A program made the position numbers and the translations under genes. 64,000 bases of DNA from a virus. The DNA is taken from positions 62,001 to 126,000 of the IMG/VR virus record IMGVR_UViG_3300020474_000001, one strand, 5' to 3'. How positions within the stretch are numbered: the stretch's first letter is position 1; the number at the start of each line of letters is the position of its first letter. Below, one piece after another: positions 1,805 through 62,481 of this stretch. Under the pieces are notes generated by a model. It did not search any database. It was not told where the DNA came from and saw only the letters and a program-made list of their open reading frames with translations.

Positions 1805-3712
1805 CTACATCACCCCAAGAGTCTTGAGTTTTCTTGAAGAAATAAAAGATGCATCCAGCATTTCAATATCGTTAGCAACTTCATCAGATGAAGGGATTAC
1901 AACTTGACCAGTATCACCTTCAGAAATAAATGTAACGACTGGTTCGCTCTTCACGGGTGGGTTTGGTATTAATGCACTTGAATTTTTACTTGCAAAAGAA
2001 GTGCCATCATCATACATGTTAATAATATTTTCAATATGATGGACAGCACCACGTTGGACAGCTTCGTTTGGAACAATTACATGCGCTTCACCTGGCTGAA
2101 CATTAAATGTATATTGTTGTCTATCTATAGTTGCACCTGGGATATCTATACCAGTATCCTCCTTTATCATATTGATTCTATCATTCCCAGTATCAGAAAC
2201 ACTGTTGAAGTATTTGTCTGTTTTGAAAGTATCTCCACTATAAGTATTGTTAAAGTAATTATTATTTTCAAGTAAATCTCTAAAATAATTATCAGTTTTA
2301 AAAGTATTCTTATCAGTGGTACGATTTATTATAGTATTCAAAACATTATGAACCACATTTGAACTATAATCATTTTCAGTTGATGTTGATGCGTCCATCA
2401 CAGTATCACGCATCGGAATATCAATTATAGGATCTACCTTGGGCATATTAAAAGAAGGAGAGATATTCAATCCCATCATAGAAGGATAGTTGAATTGATA
2501 CTTATCCTTACCTATAACACCGCCAGAAGCAGCATAATATACATTACCCTTAATCTTTGGTTTATTTGCATTTGGAGACCCATCCTCATTGAACTCTAGG
2601 GGATCTCTACCAGTCTCTAGTATGGCTTTATCACGAGCCTTCTCTGTTAATACAATCTCACCATCTGTTAACCAACCTAAATTCTTATCTTTACCTTTCT
2701 TACCCCTTACAACTCCACCTTCTTCAGCATCAAACATTTTCATATTGAGCATATCAGAATTGTTCATTCCTCCATTAAAAAATGCTGCCCCAATAGGATC
2801 TGCAGCAAACCCACCAAAATCAAGAGCATCATCAAATTGATTAGTTCCTGGGGAAGATTCTGGATCACTAGATGGAGAATTGATCATTTCACTGGACAAT
2901 GCAGAAGAAACTGCAGCGCCAGCAATCAAACCACCTCCCAATACAACAGCAGGAGACTTTAGTAAATTCCCAGCACCTAGTAAAAGTTTTTTCTTATTTA
3001 AATTAGCTATGCCACGTATTAAGGCAGCAACTGCTCTCACTGTTAGAGAAGTTATTGAGCGAATAAATTTACCAAAAGATGTGCCAAATAAAATATAGCT
3101 ACCAATTATTGCTGGCCACCAATCTTTTAGAAATCTTAATATATTACCGAGTTTACGTTGATTTTTTGGATCACCCATCCAGTTCAGTATATCAACAAAT
3201 ACCTTTCCAAGGAAAACATTCATAACATAATCAATGATTGTATCTAGAATGCTTTTAACAGGAGCTAACATACGCTTGCCTATTGACGTGAATAGGTTTA
3301 CCTTTTTCTCTGCATTATTCTCCCTAACTTCTCTTTCAGAATTTTCTTTATTTCGACGTTGCCTTGCTGCATTATTTTTTTTATCTTTGTTATCATCCCC
3401 CTTTTCACTTTCAAAATCTTTCTTCAGAATTTCCAATATAGCAATAGTGGACTGGTTGATATTTTCAAGCGTACTCACAATTGAATTAAAATCAACTTTC
3501 TTAACTGAAGTAGAAGTAGAACTGCCCGTTGAAGTATTGCTAGGAGTATTAGTAGGCGCAGGATTTTGATTAGTTCCCATAAACTTACCAGGGTTTATGG
3601 GATCCTTATTCTGACCAGTATACACATCAACTTTACCAGCAATTATATCATTCAAATATTGCTGAGCTTGTTGTCTTCTTGATGGGTCCATCCTACCACG
3701 TCTTCTAGCCAT
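1805..3712 (-). CDS. Tape-measure-like tail structural protein
   Basis: This 635-residue protein begins with a basic MARRRGRMDPSRR stretch. A Ser/Thr-rich linker, a charged coiled-coil-like region (about 100-140), hydrophobic helices (about 150-290) and a polar C-terminal half follow. The layout parallels the next gene downstream, and both begin MAR, which suggests paralogues or two parts of one tail-length or hub system. Its ATG overlaps the stop of the gp51-like gene (ATGGCTAG), so the two are translationally coupled. The position in a gp26-gp51 cluster supports a virion tail role; the exact T4 equivalent cannot be set from the sequence alone. Confidence 0.72.
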   Translation of the reverse strand: MARRRGRMDPSRRQQAQQYLNDIIAGKVDVYTGQNKDPINPGKFMGTNQNPAPTNTPSNTSTGSSTSTSVKKVDFNSIVSTLENINQSTIAILEILKKDFESEKGDDNKDKKNNAARQRRNKENSEREVRENNAEKKVNLFTSIGKRMLAPVKSILDTIIDYVMNVFLGKVFVDILNWMGDPKNQRKLGNILRFLKDWWPAIIGSYILFGTSFGKFIRSITSLTVRAVAALIRGIANLNKKKLLLGAGNLLKSPAVVLGGGLIAGAAVSSALSSEMINSPSSDPESSPGTNQFDDALDFGGFAADPIGAAFFNGGMNNSDMLNMKMFDAEEGGVVRGKKGKDKNLGWLTDGEIVLTEKARDKAILETGRDPLEFNEDGSPNANKPKIKGNVYYAASGGVIGKDKYQFNYPSMMGLNISPSFNMPKVDPIIDIPMRDTVMDASTSTENDYSSNVVHNVLNTIINRTTDKNTFKTDNYFRDLLENNNYFNNTYSGDTFKTDKYFNSVSDTGNDRINMIKEDTGIDIPGATIDRQQYTFNVQPGEAHVIVPNEAVQRGAVHHIENIINMYDDGTSFASKNSSALIPNPPVKSEPVVTFISEGDTGQVVIPSSDEVANDIEMLDASFISSRKLKTLGVM

Positions 3713-3881
3713 TAGATTGCTGTCGTTTTTGTTCTTCTTCTTCCAGATGTTGTTGCAATAACATCACATAAACGTCACGCTCCCATGGCATCATATTTTC
3801 AATTTCAGTCAATGAATATTTATGATACTGCATTAAAGAAAAATTAAGTTTAAAATAACTAATTAAATTCATGTGTACCAT
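3705..3881 (-). CDS. gp51-like baseplate hub assembly protein
   Basis: A 58-residue ORF lies between the gp26-like gene and the tape-measure-like gene. It contains the conserved cyanophage segment MQYHKYSLTEIENMMPWERD and then a Glu/Gln-rich helix. T4 gp51 is an assembly catalyst of the baseplate hub and is encoded next to gp26, so order and size both fit. The start at 3881 follows the gp26 stop directly; a second in-frame ATG at 3872 would give 55 residues. The stop overlaps the next ATG. Identity rests on order and a remembered family pattern. Confidence 0.68.
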   Translation of the reverse strand: MVHMNLISYFKLNFSLMQYHKYSLTEIENMMPWERDVYVMLLQQHLEEEEQKRQQSNG

Positions 3882-3883
3882 TC

Positions 3884-4603
3884 CTAGGCGAAAAAAGATG
3901 CAAGTCCCTCCAATAAAACTTCACTCTCAACTTTTGTTTTTGGATTCCTAATTGTAATCGTATGAGATAATTTTGGCATCGTCTCAAAGAATTTCTCAAT
4001 AGATTTAAACTGAGATGAATTCATGGACTCAAGAAATTCAAGCATTTCTTTCTTAGTACAATCTGAAGTAGACCAAGCTTCCTCTTCTGTAAAGATAGTC
4101 CCTATACATGATGCAATCAATTCAAAAGACTTTTCCATAGTATTTTTCTTAGTAAAGTCAAAGTTATTTTTTACAAACTGATCTAGAGATGGATATTTCA
4201 TCTGCAGCATTATATTTTCATCGACTTTTATCTGATCGGTATGCTCATCATTTTTCTTAACCTTGATATCATCTAAGTTAAGTTTGACATTTACTTCAGT
4301 CTCCTCATCATCTGGACAAATCAGGTTGACTTCGATTTGTTCTCCCACAGATTTACCACGAATATTTAAAAACAAATATTCAATATCAAATGTCGGAAGG
4401 TCCTGAACCTTTATGCCTGATGTTAGAATACAATTCTTTATCACATTTTTAATACCGGTGGTAATCTGCTTCATATCCTCGCTCTCAAGAGCAATGATTA
4501 AAAGCTTTTCTTCCTTGACAAGGAAAGGTCTATATTCAATAGTTTCTCCAGTTGAAGGCAATTCAAGTTCATATGTCGGAGCAACAATTTTTGGTAATGG
4601 CAT
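3884..4603 (-). CDS. gp26-like baseplate hub subunit
   Basis: This 239-residue protein begins MPLPKIVAPTYELELPSTG and has the family feature of an N-terminal beta-rich part (residues EYRPFLVKEEKLLIIALES) followed by an acidic central domain. Cyanomyovirus gp26 homologues have this size and this start. It acts in assembly of the central hub of the baseplate. A CTAAATA late-promoter-like element lies about 30 nt upstream. It is followed by gp51, as in T4. Confidence 0.75.
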   Translation of the reverse strand: MPLPKIVAPTYELELPSTGETIEYRPFLVKEEKLLIIALESEDMKQITTGIKNVIKNCILTSGIKVQDLPTFDIEYLFLNIRGKSVGEQIEVNLICPDDEETEVNVKLNLDDIKVKKNDEHTDQIKVDENIMLQMKYPSLDQFVKNNFDFTKKNTMEKSFELIASCIGTIFTEEEAWSTSDCTKKEMLEFLESMNSSQFKSIEKFFETMPKLSHTITIRNPKTKVESEVLLEGLASFFA

Positions 4604-48242: not shown

Positions 48243-50774
48243 TCAGTCCGTTCTGGTAGCACCACCTGGACCTTTACGAGGAGATGCATATGCATCTGCC
48301 ATCTTCTGGGTGTCTGTTCTAGTGTCCGGCTTAGGGGGAACTTTTGGTGTGTTACCCATTACTCTCTTGTTTGCTGCTTTCTTCTCCTCAGGTGTCAGTC
48401 TATTATAATCCTGAGAGATTTTCATCTGCTGATCAATCGACAGTTCCTCGGTGGCGGTAGAAACCTTTGGTTTTTTATTCGCAAATGAAGGCAAGGTCGC
48501 AATCCCCCTCTTCGTTGCTATCCTTTCACCATTTTCAACTCCTGTATCACCAGCTTTAGCAATTCTAAAATTTCTTTCGTTTTTCCTTGTATTCTGTTTT
48601 TGATCTATTTTTCCTTTATCAAAAGGAGAATCAACTTCCTCCATTGCATCTACCTTTTTCATCCCCCTCAATCTAGCAGCAGCAACCTTTCCAGATGGAG
48701 TTCCTGCACGATTCATTCCATCAATTTTTCTATTATAACTTGTCTTTTCTCTCTGCTTCTCCTTCTTATTAATATCTGCTTTTACTTTATCTGCAGATGG
48801 TGCATTTGATGATCTCTTCTTTGCTTCTCTTGTTTTTTGAACTTGAAAAGCACCCTGATTACCGTACTCTCTCCCCCTTCTTTCTTTAGATTGATTAGCA
48901 CCTTTTCTAGTTAAATTGTCACCACTCACAACCTTCTTTTCTCTTTTAATTGTAACATCATCTTCTGGTTTACCATCACCATGCGTATATGATTTGGATA
49001 CTACACGATACCCTTCATCTACTACGTAAGGAGAAGTAACCTCATATGCAGCCTTCATCCTTTCTTTAAGACGAATCCTCATATCATCCTCTCCCGTTTC
49101 CACCTGATTAGTCAGATGGTCAGCAGCCTTATATCGCTTATCACCTGATTTCAATCTCTGATAGGCAGGAGTGTTTCCTTTCTTATCGGCATTGGTAACA
49201 GTCATGGGAGTGTCTGTTTTCTTTTTAGGAGTGCCACCGTAAACTGCTTCATGAACATTCTCTTCCGTCGCTACTTTATTAGCAATCTTAGCAGCTTTCC
49301 CTGCCATCTTCACGCCTTCTCCAGCGCCTTTGGCAACTGCACCTGCAACCTTTCCTGCTTTCTTAAGAGTTTTACCCGTTTCGTTGGATAATTTCTTAGC
49401 AGTAGCCATTGCTTTATTGTGGCGTTCAATTCCTTTTACAACAGCATTTCCAACTCTATCGAGCAAACCTTTCCTTTTAGGTTGCTGCTTCTTAGCAGTT
49501 TTAACTGCATGTGCTCTAGCAGATTGACTCTTCAGGGCTGCTGCCATTCCTGATGGTTTGGAACTACCAGATTCTGAATCTCTTCTTGCCTGCTTCTCTT
49601 TACGAAGTCTCTTGATTGCTGATGTTCTAGCACCCCCTCTGAGGGAACCAACAGATTTACCAGTCTTGGTTACTGGTTCCACTCTAACACCACCTGCTCT
49701 TGCTTCTGTAAGAACTTCCTCACCAAGTTCATAAACATAATCTACAAATGATTCGAGACCAAGTTCCTCAATCAGAATTTCGATACCATCTTCATTAAGA
49801 CCTTCCTCAACGAAATATTCTGCTGCTGTATTTGCTACCCACTGAACCTCTTCATCATGCTGCAAAAAGTTTACATATTTCTCATGCTCTTTCTGCTTGA
49901 GTTTCTTTGAAGCAATCTTTCCAGCATCACGATTCAATCTTTGTTGTGGCGTAGGTTTTTCTCTATCTTCCCCTTCAGAAACCTCAGTGAATTCCAAAAT
50001 GGTCCCACCCAGATATTCAATACCTTCTTTAAAATCTGGATTTATTTTAATGATTGATGAATTATTTACTTGACCATCAGTGATCTTTTCTGAATTATTC
50101 TTCAGAGATTTTTTTTTTTCAACCTCTATAAGAATACCTTCACCTAAAGTTTCAGTTAATTCTGATCTCCAATCAGAGTATCCGTCCATCACATTACTAT
50201 CCCTCATCTTGTCAAAACGCTCTTTCTCTTTCTGGCGGGAGATTGCACTTACGATCTTGCCAGACTTATCCTGTGCTTTAGAACCTACCTCAGTAGACAG
50301 TCCTTTGCTAAGTGCATCACGACTTAGGTTACCTGCTCTACGATACATCGCAGTTTCTTTTTTCTTGTCGATAGGTTTGTAACCCTCTACCATATCACCT
50401 TCTGGTTCATGACTTGACTTTACACAATTAGGAACCGATCTACCATTCTTCATCTTAGTTCCCTTTGCCTTATAACCAGTCCAGCAAGATGGTTTATCCG
50501 GATCCATGCCAATATTTTTACGTGCTTGCTTCAGGCTAGCTTTTTTAGATTCATCAACTGGCTTTTTCTTACTCTTCTTTTTATCCTTATCCTTGTCCTT
50601 ATTAGGGAACTCACCATCTACTTCGCCTGGTTCATATCCGATGCCATCACCATCATCGTCCCACCAGCGTGGTTTTTTATTCGTATCCTTACTCTTTTTT
50701 TCATCATCTTTACACTTTTTCTCTTGAATATTATTCAAGTATACGCTAGATAGATCATTCAGATGCACAGTCAT
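48243..50774 (-). CDS. Large basic disordered protein, probable head-internal protein
   Basis: About 843 residues, very rich in Lys, Arg, Ala, Gly, Asp and Glu. The N-terminal part has an acidic DDDGDGIGYEPGEVDGEF segment. A helical acidic domain (WVANTAAEYFVEEGLNEDGI) follows near the middle. Then VLTEARAGG, a likely prohead protease site, starts long Lys/Ala-rich histone-like stretches (KTLKKAGKVAGAVAKGAG). It lies with a similar gene (52200) and a late promoter. A DNA-binding role inside the head is inferred. ATG 50774 is preferred over an upstream TTG. Confidence 0.66.
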   Translation of the reverse strand: MTVHLNDLSSVYLNNIQEKKCKDDEKKSKDTNKKPRWWDDDGDGIGYEPGEVDGEFPNKDKDKDKKKSKKKPVDESKKASLKQARKNIGMDPDKPSCWTGYKAKGTKMKNGRSVPNCVKSSHEPEGDMVEGYKPIDKKKETAMYRRAGNLSRDALSKGLSTEVGSKAQDKSGKIVSAISRQKEKERFDKMRDSNVMDGYSDWRSELTETLGEGILIEVEKKKSLKNNSEKITDGQVNNSSIIKINPDFKEGIEYLGGTILEFTEVSEGEDREKPTPQQRLNRDAGKIASKKLKQKEHEKYVNFLQHDEEVQWVANTAAEYFVEEGLNEDGIEILIEELGLESFVDYVYELGEEVLTEARAGGVRVEPVTKTGKSVGSLRGGARTSAIKRLRKEKQARRDSESGSSKPSGMAAALKSQSARAHAVKTAKKQQPKRKGLLDRVGNAVVKGIERHNKAMATAKKLSNETGKTLKKAGKVAGAVAKGAGEGVKMAGKAAKIANKVATEENVHEAVYGGTPKKKTDTPMTVTNADKKGNTPAYQRLKSGDKRYKAADHLTNQVETGEDDMRIRLKERMKAAYEVTSPYVVDEGYRVVSKSYTHGDGKPEDDVTIKREKKVVSGDNLTRKGANQSKERRGREYGNQGAFQVQKTREAKKRSSNAPSADKVKADINKKEKQREKTSYNRKIDGMNRAGTPSGKVAAARLRGMKKVDAMEEVDSPFDKGKIDQKQNTRKNERNFRIAKAGDTGVENGERIATKRGIATLPSFANKKPKVSTATEELSIDQQMKISQDYNRLTPEEKKAANKRVMGNTPKVPPKPDTRTDTQKMADAYASPRKGPGGATRTD

Positions 50775-50778
50775 TTTG

Positions 50779-52017
50779 TCAATCAACTAACTTTTTCCTG
50801 TATTTATTTATAAAAATCTTAACACCTGCACTATCAATAGGTGGTTCATAATAATATTCATAATATTCACATACATCTCTTATCCAAGACTTAAACATTT
50901 TTTGCTCTTCTGTAACACAAATCAGATGATTAGTTCCTCTGCGAATAATCTCTCCAACTAAACCAGTATTCATATTCTGAACAGTGTCCCCGATATTATA
51001 AATTTCATCACCCAAGTACTTTTCCCTCAATATTTGCGGATAAAGCTTTGGAGCAACTTCCCACTCCTCAACAACTCTACCCTTAGCCTTCTGCTTTCTT
51101 CTATTCTCATCTTTCTTTTCTTTCTGCTTTTTAGTTCTCTTCGGAGATGCTGTCATACCCTGCTGAACAGCATCGAACAGTCCCATTGCATCTTCATCAT
51201 CAAGAGACTTAGGAGTTCCTCTGCGGAATGTTTTAAAATCATTATTCAAAACTGCTTTTCTCATCTTAGATGCAGACATACCTTCCACGCCTTCAGCATC
51301 AGCATCACGAACACCAGCAGATATCACACGAATCTGCTCAAAATTATATAAACTATTCTCCTCTTTACCATTGTACTTTTTCGCCAAACTCTCAAACTCT
51401 GCCTGACGATCAGAACCAACAACAATATTGATATTAACATATCCATCCTCAGCAGCGAGAACAAGGACATTGAAAATTGTATCCATCTTCTTGTCGTTAA
51501 TGATATTCTCCTCAAAATCTGGGAACATCTTCTTCATATACTGAACTTTGATGTTTGTGTCCAAAGGATTTTTCTTTGGATCCACAGTTCTAGATGGATA
51601 AATCTTTAGATCAGCATCAACAGAAAGTCTCTGTGCAGTTTTAAATAGACGCTCATGACCGATTGTTGGTGGATTGAACCGACCAAATACAATAGTAACT
51701 GTATCAGAAGTCTCTCCCTCACCAGTTGTAGTATCTTTGGTAGCACCCTTTGGTGTAGTAGGAGTAATTGCTTTTCTTTGCCTAGGTGCGGACTGCTGCA
51801 CTGCAGTAGCCCTCGACATCTGTGGCTGCTGCTCCTGCTTCTTCTCTCTGGGTGTCATGTAAAGAAGCTTTCCCTTCTCGGTTCTAGCAATGAGTTCACC
51901 GTTCACTGGGTTAATCCAACCTGCCTTCTGCCTATCATACACCAAACCCTTCTGCATTGCTTCCTTTGCAGCACCGGTTTTATTAGCTTCGACAAGAAAT
52001 TCTGTAAACCTTTTCAT
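50779..52017 (-). CDS. Nucleotidyltransferase-domain protein with prohead-type N-terminus
   Basis: A 412-residue protein. The start MKRFTEFLVEANKTGAAKEA resembles N-termini of cyanophage head proteins cut by the prohead protease. VTIVFGRFNPPTIGHERLF near residue 106 is the HxGH-type nucleotidyltransferase motif (T-I-G-H), and MSASKMRKAVLNN near 245 is the second signature (ISxSxxR-like). The C-terminal domain (GDTVQNMNTGLVGEIIRRGT) recurs in other cyanophage head proteins. The substrate may be NMN- or CTP-type but is unknown. A late motif is upstream. Confidence 0.76.
   Translation of the reverse strand: MKRFTEFLVEANKTGAAKEAMQKGLVYDRQKAGWINPVNGELIARTEKGKLLYMTPREKKQEQQPQMSRATAVQQSAPRQRKAITPTTPKGATKDTTTGEGETSDTVTIVFGRFNPPTIGHERLFKTAQRLSVDADLKIYPSRTVDPKKNPLDTNIKVQYMKKMFPDFEENIINDKKMDTIFNVLVLAAEDGYVNINIVVGSDRQAEFESLAKKYNGKEENSLYNFEQIRVISAGVRDADAEGVEGMSASKMRKAVLNNDFKTFRRGTPKSLDDEDAMGLFDAVQQGMTASPKRTKKQKEKKDENRRKQKAKGRVVEEWEVAPKLYPQILREKYLGDEIYNIGDTVQNMNTGLVGEIIRRGTNHLICVTEEQKMFKSWIRDVCEYYEYYYEPPIDSAGVKIFINKYRKKLVD
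50805..50812 (-). promoter_or_regulatory. Late promoter TATAAATA
   Basis: A perfect T4 late promoter TATAAATA, continuing AATACAGG, lies inside the end of the 50779-52017 gene, about 31 nt upstream of ATG 50774. Confidence 0.55.
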
Positions 52018-52044
52018 TAATTTAACACTTCCCCCTATACTTGG

Positions 52045-52051
52045 TATTTAG
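52045..52051 (-). promoter_or_regulatory. Late promoter-like motif (CTAAATA)
   Basis: CTAAATA on the minus strand is about 28 nt upstream of the nucleotidyltransferase gene, between it and tRNA-Ala. Confidence 0.45.
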
Positions 52052-52072
52052 TTAAATTAAAATTGAATAAAA

Positions 52073-52145
52073 TGGAGAATAGGAGACTCGAACTCCTGAC
52101 AGCCTGCTTGCAAAGCAGGTGCTCTACCAACTGAGCTAATTCCCC
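52073..52145 (-). tRNA. tRNA-Ala (anticodon TGC)
   Basis: 73 nt. Acceptor GGGGAAT/ATTCTCC with one mismatch-type G-T position, anticodon stem CCTGC/GCAGG with loop TTTGCAA, GTTCGAGTC T-loop. It is separate from the other eight tRNAs and has its own promoter. Confidence 0.9.
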
Positions 52146-52155
52146 GATATAAAAT

Positions 52156-52184
52156 ATTATAAGACCCTCAAGACTATCTGTCAA
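52156..52184 (-). promoter_or_regulatory. Consensus promoter for tRNA-Ala inside a hairpin
   Basis: TTGACA, 17 bp, TATAAT on the minus strand. The -35 lies in the loop of the 52162-52192 hairpin and the spacer forms its other arm. RNA would start about 4 nt before the tRNA. Confidence 0.85.
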
Positions 52185-52192
52185 GAGGGTCT
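52162..52192 (-). terminator. Hairpin after the histone-like gene
   Basis: An 8-bp stem AGACCCTC/GAGGGTCT with a 15-nt loop, 8 nt after the 52200-53267 stop. A T/A-rich tract follows. It is both the likely terminator of that gene and the site of the tRNA-Ala promoter. Confidence 0.72.
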
Positions 52193-52199
52193 ATCAATA

Positions 52200-53267
52200 T
52201 CAGTTGTATGCATTTACAATGGTATCAATATCTTCTCTATCAAGTTCGTTGACCATAAGCACTCTTGCTTCATCCAGAGATTCTGCGAAACCTTCAGTCT
52301 GAAGAAACTCAAGAACGAGATCATACTGATCATACTCTTCACTCATTCTCCTGGCAAGACCAGATGCACGATTAGCAACACTTGTTGCTGCTCTTCTAAT
52401 CATTCCCTTGAGACCACTCTTTGCCTGCTTTGCTTTTCCTGCTACAGCTTTCTCTGCTCTATCAGTTCCCCTTGCAGCTGACCTTGCAGCACTATTAGCA
52501 GCATCACCAGCTTTCTTTACAGTGCCACTTGCAGTGCTTTGAACCTTTTTACTTGCACTTGCAAAAGATTTTCCAGTTTTTTCAGCTGCTTTATTAAACT
52601 TATCACCAGCTTTGGAGATTGCACCTGAAACTCTCTTTCTGATATTATTGATCTTAATTCCTTTCTTTGGAGATAAAGATGAAGTTGGAGTATTTGGTCT
52701 ATCAGTTGCTCTTGGCTTGTATTTTCCACTAGCACTTACATTACCAGTAACTTTACTAACACTTTTCTTAACTCTAGATGATGATGCAAGTGCTCTACCC
52801 ATAGCAGCATTTTTACTCCTTCTCACCGCATCAGAATGATCACTATCAGTGGTCTTAGATGATTTGGCGGTCTTTGGAGATGGAGAAGGTTTAGATGCAC
52901 CAGCTAACCTTTGAGCTCTCATATCGGCCTGCTTTTGTGCCTTTTTGCTAAGTGGTTTCCCAGCATTTTTTTTCGCTTCCTCATCGTCCTGCTTGGCCTT
53001 CACCTGATCCTCGGATTCTGGATTCCTACTTCTCTTAGCCGCTCTTACTTTTTCTGTTATCAGGGACTCATCAAAATCTTCAAATGCTTCGTTAATATCT
53101 TCTAAAGTATATCCCTCTTCAAGAAGTTCTACTACAGCACCTTCAACGACAATATCGAGTTGCTCATCAGATAGCAACTCGATTTCTTCATGAATAAAAA
53201 TTGGTGAATTTTCCGGATATACTTCTCGATAAGCTTCCGTTAAGTGTCTAATCTGAGTAGAATTCAT
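52200..53267 (-). CDS. Histone-like basic protein, probable head-internal protein
   Basis: A 355-residue protein. The N-terminal acidic helical domain (residues 1-75) ends with SLITEKVRAAKRS, a possible prohead protease cut (L-I-T-E). A long Lys/Ala/Ser-rich histone H1-like part follows (GTVKKAGDAANSAARSAARG). The end is an acidic helical domain (EEYDQYDLVLEFLQTEGF) like the domain in the middle of the 48243 protein. Probable DNA-binding capsid protein. A late motif lies upstream. Confidence 0.68.
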   Translation of the reverse strand: MNSTQIRHLTEAYREVYPENSPIFIHEEIELLSDEQLDIVVEGAVVELLEEGYTLEDINEAFEDFDESLITEKVRAAKRSRNPESEDQVKAKQDDEEAKKNAGKPLSKKAQKQADMRAQRLAGASKPSPSPKTAKSSKTTDSDHSDAVRRSKNAAMGRALASSSRVKKSVSKVTGNVSASGKYKPRATDRPNTPTSSLSPKKGIKINNIRKRVSGAISKAGDKFNKAAEKTGKSFASASKKVQSTASGTVKKAGDAANSAARSAARGTDRAEKAVAGKAKQAKSGLKGMIRRAATSVANRASGLARRMSEEYDQYDLVLEFLQTEGFAESLDEARVLMVNELDREDIDTIVNAYN

Positions 53268-61644: not shown

Positions 61645-62481
61645 TTATATCCTGTTGAAGAATGCGTCTAGCGTTCCATCACCTTTATTATATTTCTTCT
61701 CAATCACCCGCGTTAATCCCAATCGTTGTGTTGCAAAATCAATGTAATCTTTATCTATATCATATCCAATATAATCCCACCCAATATTGACTGCTGCAAC
61801 AGCAGTAGATCCTGTTCCCATAAACGGATCAAGAACTATACCAGATTGTTTTCCAGTTAATTTCAAGCAATCTTCAACTAATTTGACGGGAAATACTGCT
61901 GGATGCTTTTTATCTTCTCTCTTCATCCAAAGAGTTTCATATGGAATAAACCAACAATTACCTTTATCCCTAAGATTTGGTTTTGTATCATTCAAAGACT
62001 TACTGTGTCTCAGGTTTTCCTTGTAGTATTCATAAGGGACACCCACAGATAGACGATCTACATCTATACTACCATCTTTAGTAAAGTGGAAAAGATGTTC
62101 CCATGTTGGAGATAAAAATCTTTTACTGTTAATTGGTTTTGCATGACCACTAGTCTTACCATTTACATGAATAGACTTGACCCAATTAATATGATTTTGC
62201 AATATCCAATCCTGCCTAAGAGCAAGACCCACTTCCATGCCAATCCATGGATCAACATTAGAGTATCCCATATTGACAAATAAATGCCCATCATCTTTAA
62301 GAACTCGTTTTCCTTCTCGGAAGATTTCTACCAACCAGTCAAGATACTCCTGACGTGGTTTATTGTCATCATACTTACCGTATTTAATTTTAAGATTATA
62401 CGGAGGAGACGTAACGATAGCATCAATACTACTATCCTCCAGTTTTTTCATACCCTCTAAACAATCAAGCAAATAAAGCAT
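61645..62481 (-). CDS. DNA methyltransferase, beta-class (N4-cytosine/N6-adenine)
   Basis: From ATG 62481 about 278 residues. The catalytic motif TSPPYNLKIKYG lies near the start and the AdoMet motif LDPFMGTGSTAVAAV near the end, the beta-class order. The target recognition part is between. N4-cytosine or N6-adenine specificity cannot be set here. Its start overlaps the nuclease-like gene, so the two are coupled and may form a modification and defence pair. Confidence 0.88.
   Translation of the reverse strand: MLYLLDCLEGMKKLEDSSIDAIVTSPPYNLKIKYGKYDDNKPRQEYLDWLVEIFREGKRVLKDDGHLFVNMGYSNVDPWIGMEVGLALRQDWILQNHINWVKSIHVNGKTSGHAKPINSKRFLSPTWEHLFHFTKDGSIDVDRLSVGVPYEYYKENLRHSKSLNDTKPNLRDKGNCWFIPYETLWMKREDKKHPAVFPVKLVEDCLKLTGKQSGIVLDPFMGTGSTAVAAVNIGWDYIGYDIDKDYIDFATQRLGLTRVIEKKYNKGDGTLDAFFNRI

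Follow-up and report, generated by a model that had tools for sequence, protein, structure and literature searches.

We analysed a 64,000-nucleotide stretch of viral DNA (positions 62,001–126,000 of the IMG/VR record IMGVR_UViG_3300020474_000001; the window) and focus on a cluster of three minus-strand open reading frames (ORFs) within it, in which a nucleotidyltransferase gene (P0002) is flanked by genes for two Lys/Ala-rich basic proteins (P0001 and P0003; Table 1). DNA and protein comparison identified the source of the window as a T4-like marine cyanophage (Kyanoviridae). Its nearest annotated relatives, S-SM2, S-SCSM1 and SynMITS9220M01, share ~77–78% identity over part of the region, and its host, judging from relatives, is a cyanobacterium. 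The full record comprises 207,655 bases. The cluster has mazG/gp41/uvsX/gp43 on one side and gp61/nrdA on the other, an arrangement shared with other cyanomyoviruses, and a tRNA-Ala gene adjoins the corresponding locus in the three nearest relatives too. An earlier reading made from the sequence alone (the sequence-only reading) had placed the three ORFs here and had taken the middle one for a nucleotidyltransferase, both of which our analysis reproduced.

Table 1 Features of the cluster. Positions refer to the window; lengths and residue ranges are in amino acids; pI, isoelectric point; arrows mark predicted cuts.
Feature	Positions	Strand	Residues	Description
P0001	48243–50774	−	843 in total	Mosaic basic protein; ORF call
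P0001 acidic helical segment	49704–49889	−	296–357	pI 4.05, net charge −18; ends in predicted prohead-protease site VLTE↓ARAGG
P0001 Lys/Ala-rich segment			358–505	pI 11.3, net charge +27
Late-promoter-like motif upstream of P0001	50805–50812	−		TATAAATA
P0002	50779–52017	−	412 in total	Nucleotidyltransferase, TxGH type, T4-GC190 family; ORF call, phrog_395
P0002 capsid-targeting-like sequence	51988–52017	−	1–10	MKRFTEFLVE, first 30 bases of the gene; predicted cut after E10
P0002 GHGGW-type N-terminal module	51844–51987	−	~11–58 to ~11–60	45-residue type
P0002 variable linker			~60–105	
P0002 nucleotidyltransferase domain			~106–290	
P0002 conserved C-terminal domain			~320–390	
Late-promoter-like motif upstream of P0002	52045–52051	−		CTAAATA
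tRNA-Ala (tgc)	52073–52145	−		Between P0002 and P0003
P0003	52200–53267	−	355 in total	Basic protein; ORF call
P0003 N terminus				MNSTQIRHLTE↓AYREVY, conserved
P0003 acidic segment			12–72	pI 4.05, net charge −19; ends in LITE↓K
P0003 Lys/Ala-rich segment			73–308	pI 11.3, net charge +42
P0003 acidic C-terminal module			309–355	
Late-promoter-like motif upstream of P0003	53296–53303	−		CATAAATA

P0002 matches the phrog_395 'cytidyltransferase' profile (E = 1.6e-91), a family present in 529 phage records, mostly of cyanophages, and was aligned with 65 homologs (66 sequences; effective number, ~35). At the N terminus of this alignment, M1, K2, F7 and E10 are invariant, F4 and A11 are kept in 94% and 88% of sequences, respectively, and position 8 is restricted to L, I, F or V; positions 3, 5, 6 and 9 vary freely (entropy, 2.1–2.8 bits). 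For phage T4, a review (PMC9026906) states that IPIII needs no more than its first ten residues to be targeted to the head, and that residues 4 and 7 of the capsid-targeting sequence (CTS) serve mainly targeting and residues 8 and 10 processing. Judged by sequence, the enzyme N terminus fits the T4 CTS position by position, being about ten residues long with conserved residues 4, 7, 8 and 10; the earlier suggestion that it resembles a protease substrate therefore stands (MKRFTEFLVE↓A). The same genome encodes the prohead protease gp21 (Peptidase_S77, E = 1.9e-34), and both its major capsid protein (MCP; MLTE↓T) and gp21 itself (VITE↓N) carry a site near the N terminus, such that a gp21-family protease and a matching MCP site occur together in this genome.

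A DNA pattern for the CTS, with aromatic-type codons at positions 4 and 7, matched a single gene start in the full record, that of the enzyme, the other match being antisense inside a clamp-loader gene. Across eight phage genomes, the pattern yielded 8 matches, all on the gene strand and 5 at the enzyme gene, and its reversed-pattern control yielded 0. In 790 kb of homolog loci, 78 distinct ORFs had CTS-like starts, compared with 4 for a control with reordered residues. Fourteen of the 78 were not recognised as the enzyme by our filter, although one of these (L033) does encode it; the remainder are mostly small basic proteins encoded alongside the enzyme, with starts such as MKTFSEFIAEA..., MKTFDEFLTEA... 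and MKTFEQFLSEA.... The CTS is absent from the jumbo-phage homologs of Ettore and RaK2.

Published mass spectrometry places the enzyme family in the virions of S-SM1 (PMC3037559), S-SCSM1 (PMC9602691), S-SZBM1 (PMC9146016) and S-CREM2 (PMC10665884), and the detected homologs start with MKKFSAFLNEA, MKSFLQFLKEA, MRFRQFIIEA and MKNFSSFLTEA, respectively. The S-PM2 enzyme, which lacks a CTS-like N terminus and is joined to a portion of another protein, is listed among the proteins undetected in S-PM2 particles (PMC3037559); coming from a single older study, this is weak negative evidence. The flanking proteins, too, have relatives among virion proteins (S-SCSM1 gp280 and gp089, and S-SZBM1_139). 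The proposal in the sequence-only reading of a set of internal head proteins thus gains partial support, through homologs and relatives in the virions of other phages.

Further analysis of the flanking proteins showed that the predicted VLTE and LITE sites end at residues 357 of P0001 and 72 of P0003, and the Lys/Ala-rich segments that follow proved genuinely basic, as had been read from the letters. The acidic helical domains that the two proteins were said to share are alike in kind and show no recognisable homology (BLASTP E = 0.31 over the acidic part and 0.03 over low-complexity K/A sequence), and the 'H1-like tails' amount to composition, neither protein having a winged-helix or linker-histone Pfam match. 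P0001 is a mosaic, the blocks of which are separate in neighbours of other cyanophages (for example, SSM1_191 and SSM1_192 of S-SM1), and several relatives have L(T/N)E↓AR at the place aligned with its VLTE↓ARAGG. The P0003 start, M(D/N)S...LxEAYxxVY, is kept in relatives and in the virion protein S-SCSM1 gp089, which begins MDSKTFNSLSEAYAAVY. S-SZBM1_139 has the same order of acidic segment, LLSE and Lys/Ala-rich segment. A tblastn search of phages with P0003 found nothing at 1e-5; N-terminal relatives do exist in viral contigs. Two further candidates were dropped: VYLNNIQE↓K as a cleavage site at the P0001 N terminus, where the stretch LNDISKVYLEQ is conserved and the Glu is not, and a tape-measure assignment of P0003 (phrog_167, E = 8.9e-6), the match being judged compositional.

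All three genes also carry the late-promoter-like motifs that had been claimed for them (TATAAATA, ACTAAATA and CATAAATA), ~28–38 bp upstream of their starts. Motifs of the TATAAATA/CTAAATA type lie 15–60 bp upstream of 13 of the 89 minus-strand ATG genes in the window, against a random-position rate of 3%. These motifs would fit late expression of the three cluster genes.

The catalytic domain of P0002 looks intact, because the GRFNPPTIGH and GMSASKMR motifs are strongly conserved in the alignment, with T118-I-G-H121, S248 and R253 invariant. The family belongs to the HxGH superfamily, with 51 of the 66 homologs matching PF01467 at E ≤ 0.01 (best, 2.3e-10); P0002 alone scores 16.1 bits, below the Pfam cut-off of 21. 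NCBIfam matches among the 66 favour nicotinamide mononucleotide (NMN) adenylyltransferases (NMNATs; nadR, 32 members; TIGR00482, 27) over CoaD (4). No Pfam or NCBIfam family was matched above cut-off by P0001, P0002 or P0003, and for P0002 the curated NMNAT families gave 17.6 versus 164 bits (NF006479) and 17 versus 341 bits (TIGR01526). A sequence search of the PDB returned nothing for P0002, and a profile search only E = 0.35–0.72. Like NadM, NadR, NadD and CoaD, the enzyme has GxFxPxxxGH and a C-terminal SxxxxR-type motif (GMSASKMR), and NMNATs are its best named matches; unlike them, it has TxGH rather than HxGH, its matches lie far below curated cut-offs and solved structures come no closer than E = 0.35. 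Our best guess is that the enzyme is NMNAT-like. The record holds no match to NAMPT or NAPRTase, the partner in salvage of nicotinamide adenine dinucleotide (NAD), and so gives no sign that the phage encodes the whole salvage route.

Next, we followed the N-terminal parts of the enzyme into other proteins. A comparison of the first 61 residues of the S-SM2 enzyme with phages matched their own family and the 'serine/threonine kinases' of cluster C cyanophages. A hidden Markov model of the GHGGW-type module matched these kinases (often twice), the large phrog_3561 proteins of S-N03, S-H34, MC09 and ACG-2014f, and S-CRM01 g128, and the module is also found on cyanophage 'Cas9-like' proteins. According to PMC10665884, S-CRM01 particles contain a kinase; the S-CRM01 kinase matched here starts with MISFDQFLSE. 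S-CREM2, a phage with a full virion list, was compared over 42 genes from two stretches. There, the S-adenosylmethionine (SAM) hydrolase (MKDFDSFLEE), the kinase (MKRFDAFLTE), gp13 (MKDLHSFLTE), the cytidylyltransferase (MKNFSSFLTE) and a 'Cas9-like' protein (L139:838-9847 and L140:5609-6469) all combine a CTS-like start with detection in virions, and the kinase and the 'Cas9-like' protein have a GHGGW-type module besides. Virion detection applied to 5 of 6 proteins with CTS-like starts versus 8 of 36 others (Fisher P = 0.007, a value biased because the stretches were picked for holding the enzymes). A less biased scan of the whole S-CREM2 record gave three matches, all virion proteins (gp6, gp13 and gp154), with a pattern widened to Leu at position 4 after gp13 had been seen; the original pattern would return gp6 and gp154. 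No kinase relatives were confirmed in viral contigs. On balance, we lean towards a portable N-terminal tag (the CTS, often with the GHGGW module) that loads unrelated enzymes into the heads of T4-like cyanophages as ejected payload, the window cluster being one instance; the payload would include the NMNAT-like nucleotidyltransferase, a protein kinase, SAM hydrolase and nuclease-like proteins.

For the cluster itself, we consider it likely that the three genes encode late-made phage head cargo, a CTS-tagged enzyme with basic internal proteins, that is processed by the protease and ejected with the DNA. The CTS-type conservation, the charge layout, the late-promoter motifs, the gp21 gene, the matching MCP site and the homologs that others detected in virions are its basis. 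Late transcription would yield the three proteins, and MKRFTEFLVE would dock the enzyme onto the prohead core; the gp21-type protease would then cut after Glu10, the propeptide would leave, and the mature enzyme would remain in the head with the DNA and enter the host at infection. The acidic segments may hold the basic proteins to the core and off the DNA until a cut at LTE/ITE frees the Lys/Ala-rich segments, which could then neutralise the packaged DNA. From these features, we infer that the proteins are cleaved at the LTE, ITE and E10 sites, bind DNA and are ejected, and that the enzyme acts early. What it does in the host is speculation; most likely it would sustain the NAD pool of the host by adenylyl transfer to NMN or nicotinate nucleotide, and a virion-borne NMNAT-like enzyme acting on host NAD is an idea already published for S-SCSM1 (PMC9602691).

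Several points weigh against this picture. The enzyme has no CTS in S-PM2, Syn1, MED4-213 and S-RIM32; head loading is therefore not universal, as some cyanophages have the enzyme without the tag. LxE is common in acidic helices, and its presence at the acid-to-base switch in 16 of 19 relatives, versus 10.8 expected from shuffles, is by itself not beyond chance; the case for the sites in the two basic proteins therefore depends on their being conserved in relatives. The sequence matches do not single out a substrate for the enzyme. The CTS-bearing proteins S-SCSM1 gp030 and S-SZBM1_191 are not among the virion proteins reported in the accessible parts of the sources. Few peptides of the enzyme were found in S-SZBM1 (S-SZBM1_140; 2) and S-CREM2 (gp154; 3), and abundant proteins could co-purify with particles, as the mass-spectrometry authors point out (PMC10665884). 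The low counts would suit a different explanation, in which the enzyme and the basic proteins are abundant late and stick to particles, and the N-terminal motif is a domain that serves some other purpose. This view was raised in PMC9602691 and PMC10665884, whose authors left cargo or contaminant undecided for the enzyme. We think it rather improbable: conservation is confined to the positions that serve targeting and processing in T4, whereas those between vary, the same N terminus recurs on unrelated virion-detected proteins, and the single CTS-less homolog compared, that of S-PM2, is the undetected one.

A packaged enzyme could also have its function in building the head or packaging the DNA, and not in the next host. 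In S-PM2, Syn1 and MED4-213 the domain has no CTS and is fused to or overlaps a DUF6267 protein bearing a KxDG motif, an arrangement in keeping with a role in nucleic-acid or nucleotide chemistry inside the cell. However, where the activity of a T4-type CTS protein is known, as for IPI, it is exerted after ejection, and a small-molecule enzyme loaded late has no obvious use in the head, so we regard an assembly role as unlikely. Similarly doubtful is the notion that the Lys/Ala-rich proteins are core or scaffold components degraded at maturation, like T4 gp22 and gp67, and not internal proteins retained with the DNA. Their acidic segments do resemble scaffold, and in T4 the protease cuts the core proteins at many sites of this kind, but mature particles contain relatives that share the layout (S-SZBM1_139 and S-SCSM1 gp280 and gp089), and large basic segments suit DNA-filled heads.

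The neighbourhood of the enzyme offered further observations. The place upstream of it, occupied by P0003 in the window, holds very variable proteins elsewhere (L002:11341-12675, L001:12298-13617 and L003:11966-13126), among them the virion protein S-SCSM1 gp282, of unknown family, and is possibly a cargo hot spot. An 855-residue protein upstream of the enzyme (L030:3164-5728) has a module resembling GHGGW and weakly matches HNH endonucleases (E = 0.0056). L118:904-1815 (G000:C1 about 200,100) encodes a DUF6267 protein; its KxDG motif is one that typifies the active sites of nucleotidyltransferases and ligases. This family directly precedes the enzyme in other cyanophages, and part of it is apparently fused to the enzyme in S-PM2, suggesting a functional link between the two. 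The S-SKS1 homolog (L113 ~2436-3891) appears to be split over two frames, the CTS and module (MKSFFQFLFESAAQQ...) in one and the catalytic domain, which is unannotated, in the other. Proteins of ~105 residues with the CTS-like starts MKTFKQFMSE, MKSFKQFLSE and MKSFKSFLSE were seen at L109:2716-3036 (S-SCSM1 gp030), L066 from 8883 (plus strand) and L098:14312-14629 (S-SZBM1_191); in S-SCSM1 and S-SZBM1 they lie near terminase genes, and none of these small proteins is reported from virions.

The closest known system is that of T4 IPI–IPIII and Alt, with an N-terminal propeptide of ~10 residues, determinants at positions 4, 7, 8 and 10, cleavage after Glu (predicted here), basic or enzymatic head cargo and the T4-type gp21/gp22/gp23 module that this genome also has. 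Here, by contrast, the cargo is a nucleotidyltransferase of the HxGH type in which the tag is followed by a GHGGW-type module, the basic proteins bear large acidic pro-segments, the host is probably cyanobacterial and cleavage is predicted from sequence. In the giant phages phiKZ and SPN3US, likewise, numerous internal proteins lose a propeptide by cleavage after Glu and leave the head with the DNA, but these phages belong to another phage group with long propeptides and another cleavage motif, and the accessible parts of the sources on them describe no comparable nucleotidyltransferase. P0002 is of the same family as the cytidylyltransferase/NMNAT-like T4-GC190 proteins of S-SM1, S-SCSM1, S-SZBM1 and S-CREM2, most compared members of which share its layout of CTS, nucleotidyltransferase and C-terminal domain. 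The virion presence of the enzyme and its possible NAD role are already published in papers on that family, whereas the CTS assignment and a tag common to enzymes of unrelated families seem to be new and would represent a variant on the T4 system. Full-text literature on cyanophages and capsid targeting, in a coverage that most subscription papers fall outside, yielded one T4 review, the CTS passages of which do not mention cyanophages, and a related search likewise returned no report of the link.

Virion proteomics of cyanophages repeatedly yields 'non-structural' enzymes (cytidylyltransferase/NMNAT, kinases, SAM hydrolase and 'Cas9'), which their authors could not assign to cargo or contaminants. 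A T4-type head-targeting N terminus on these enzymes supports the cargo reading and makes it testable. It would also allow the payload ejected by T4-like phages of Synechococcus and Prochlorococcus to be predicted by a rule based on sequence, and the shared tag suggests a common system that delivers enzymes into the host.

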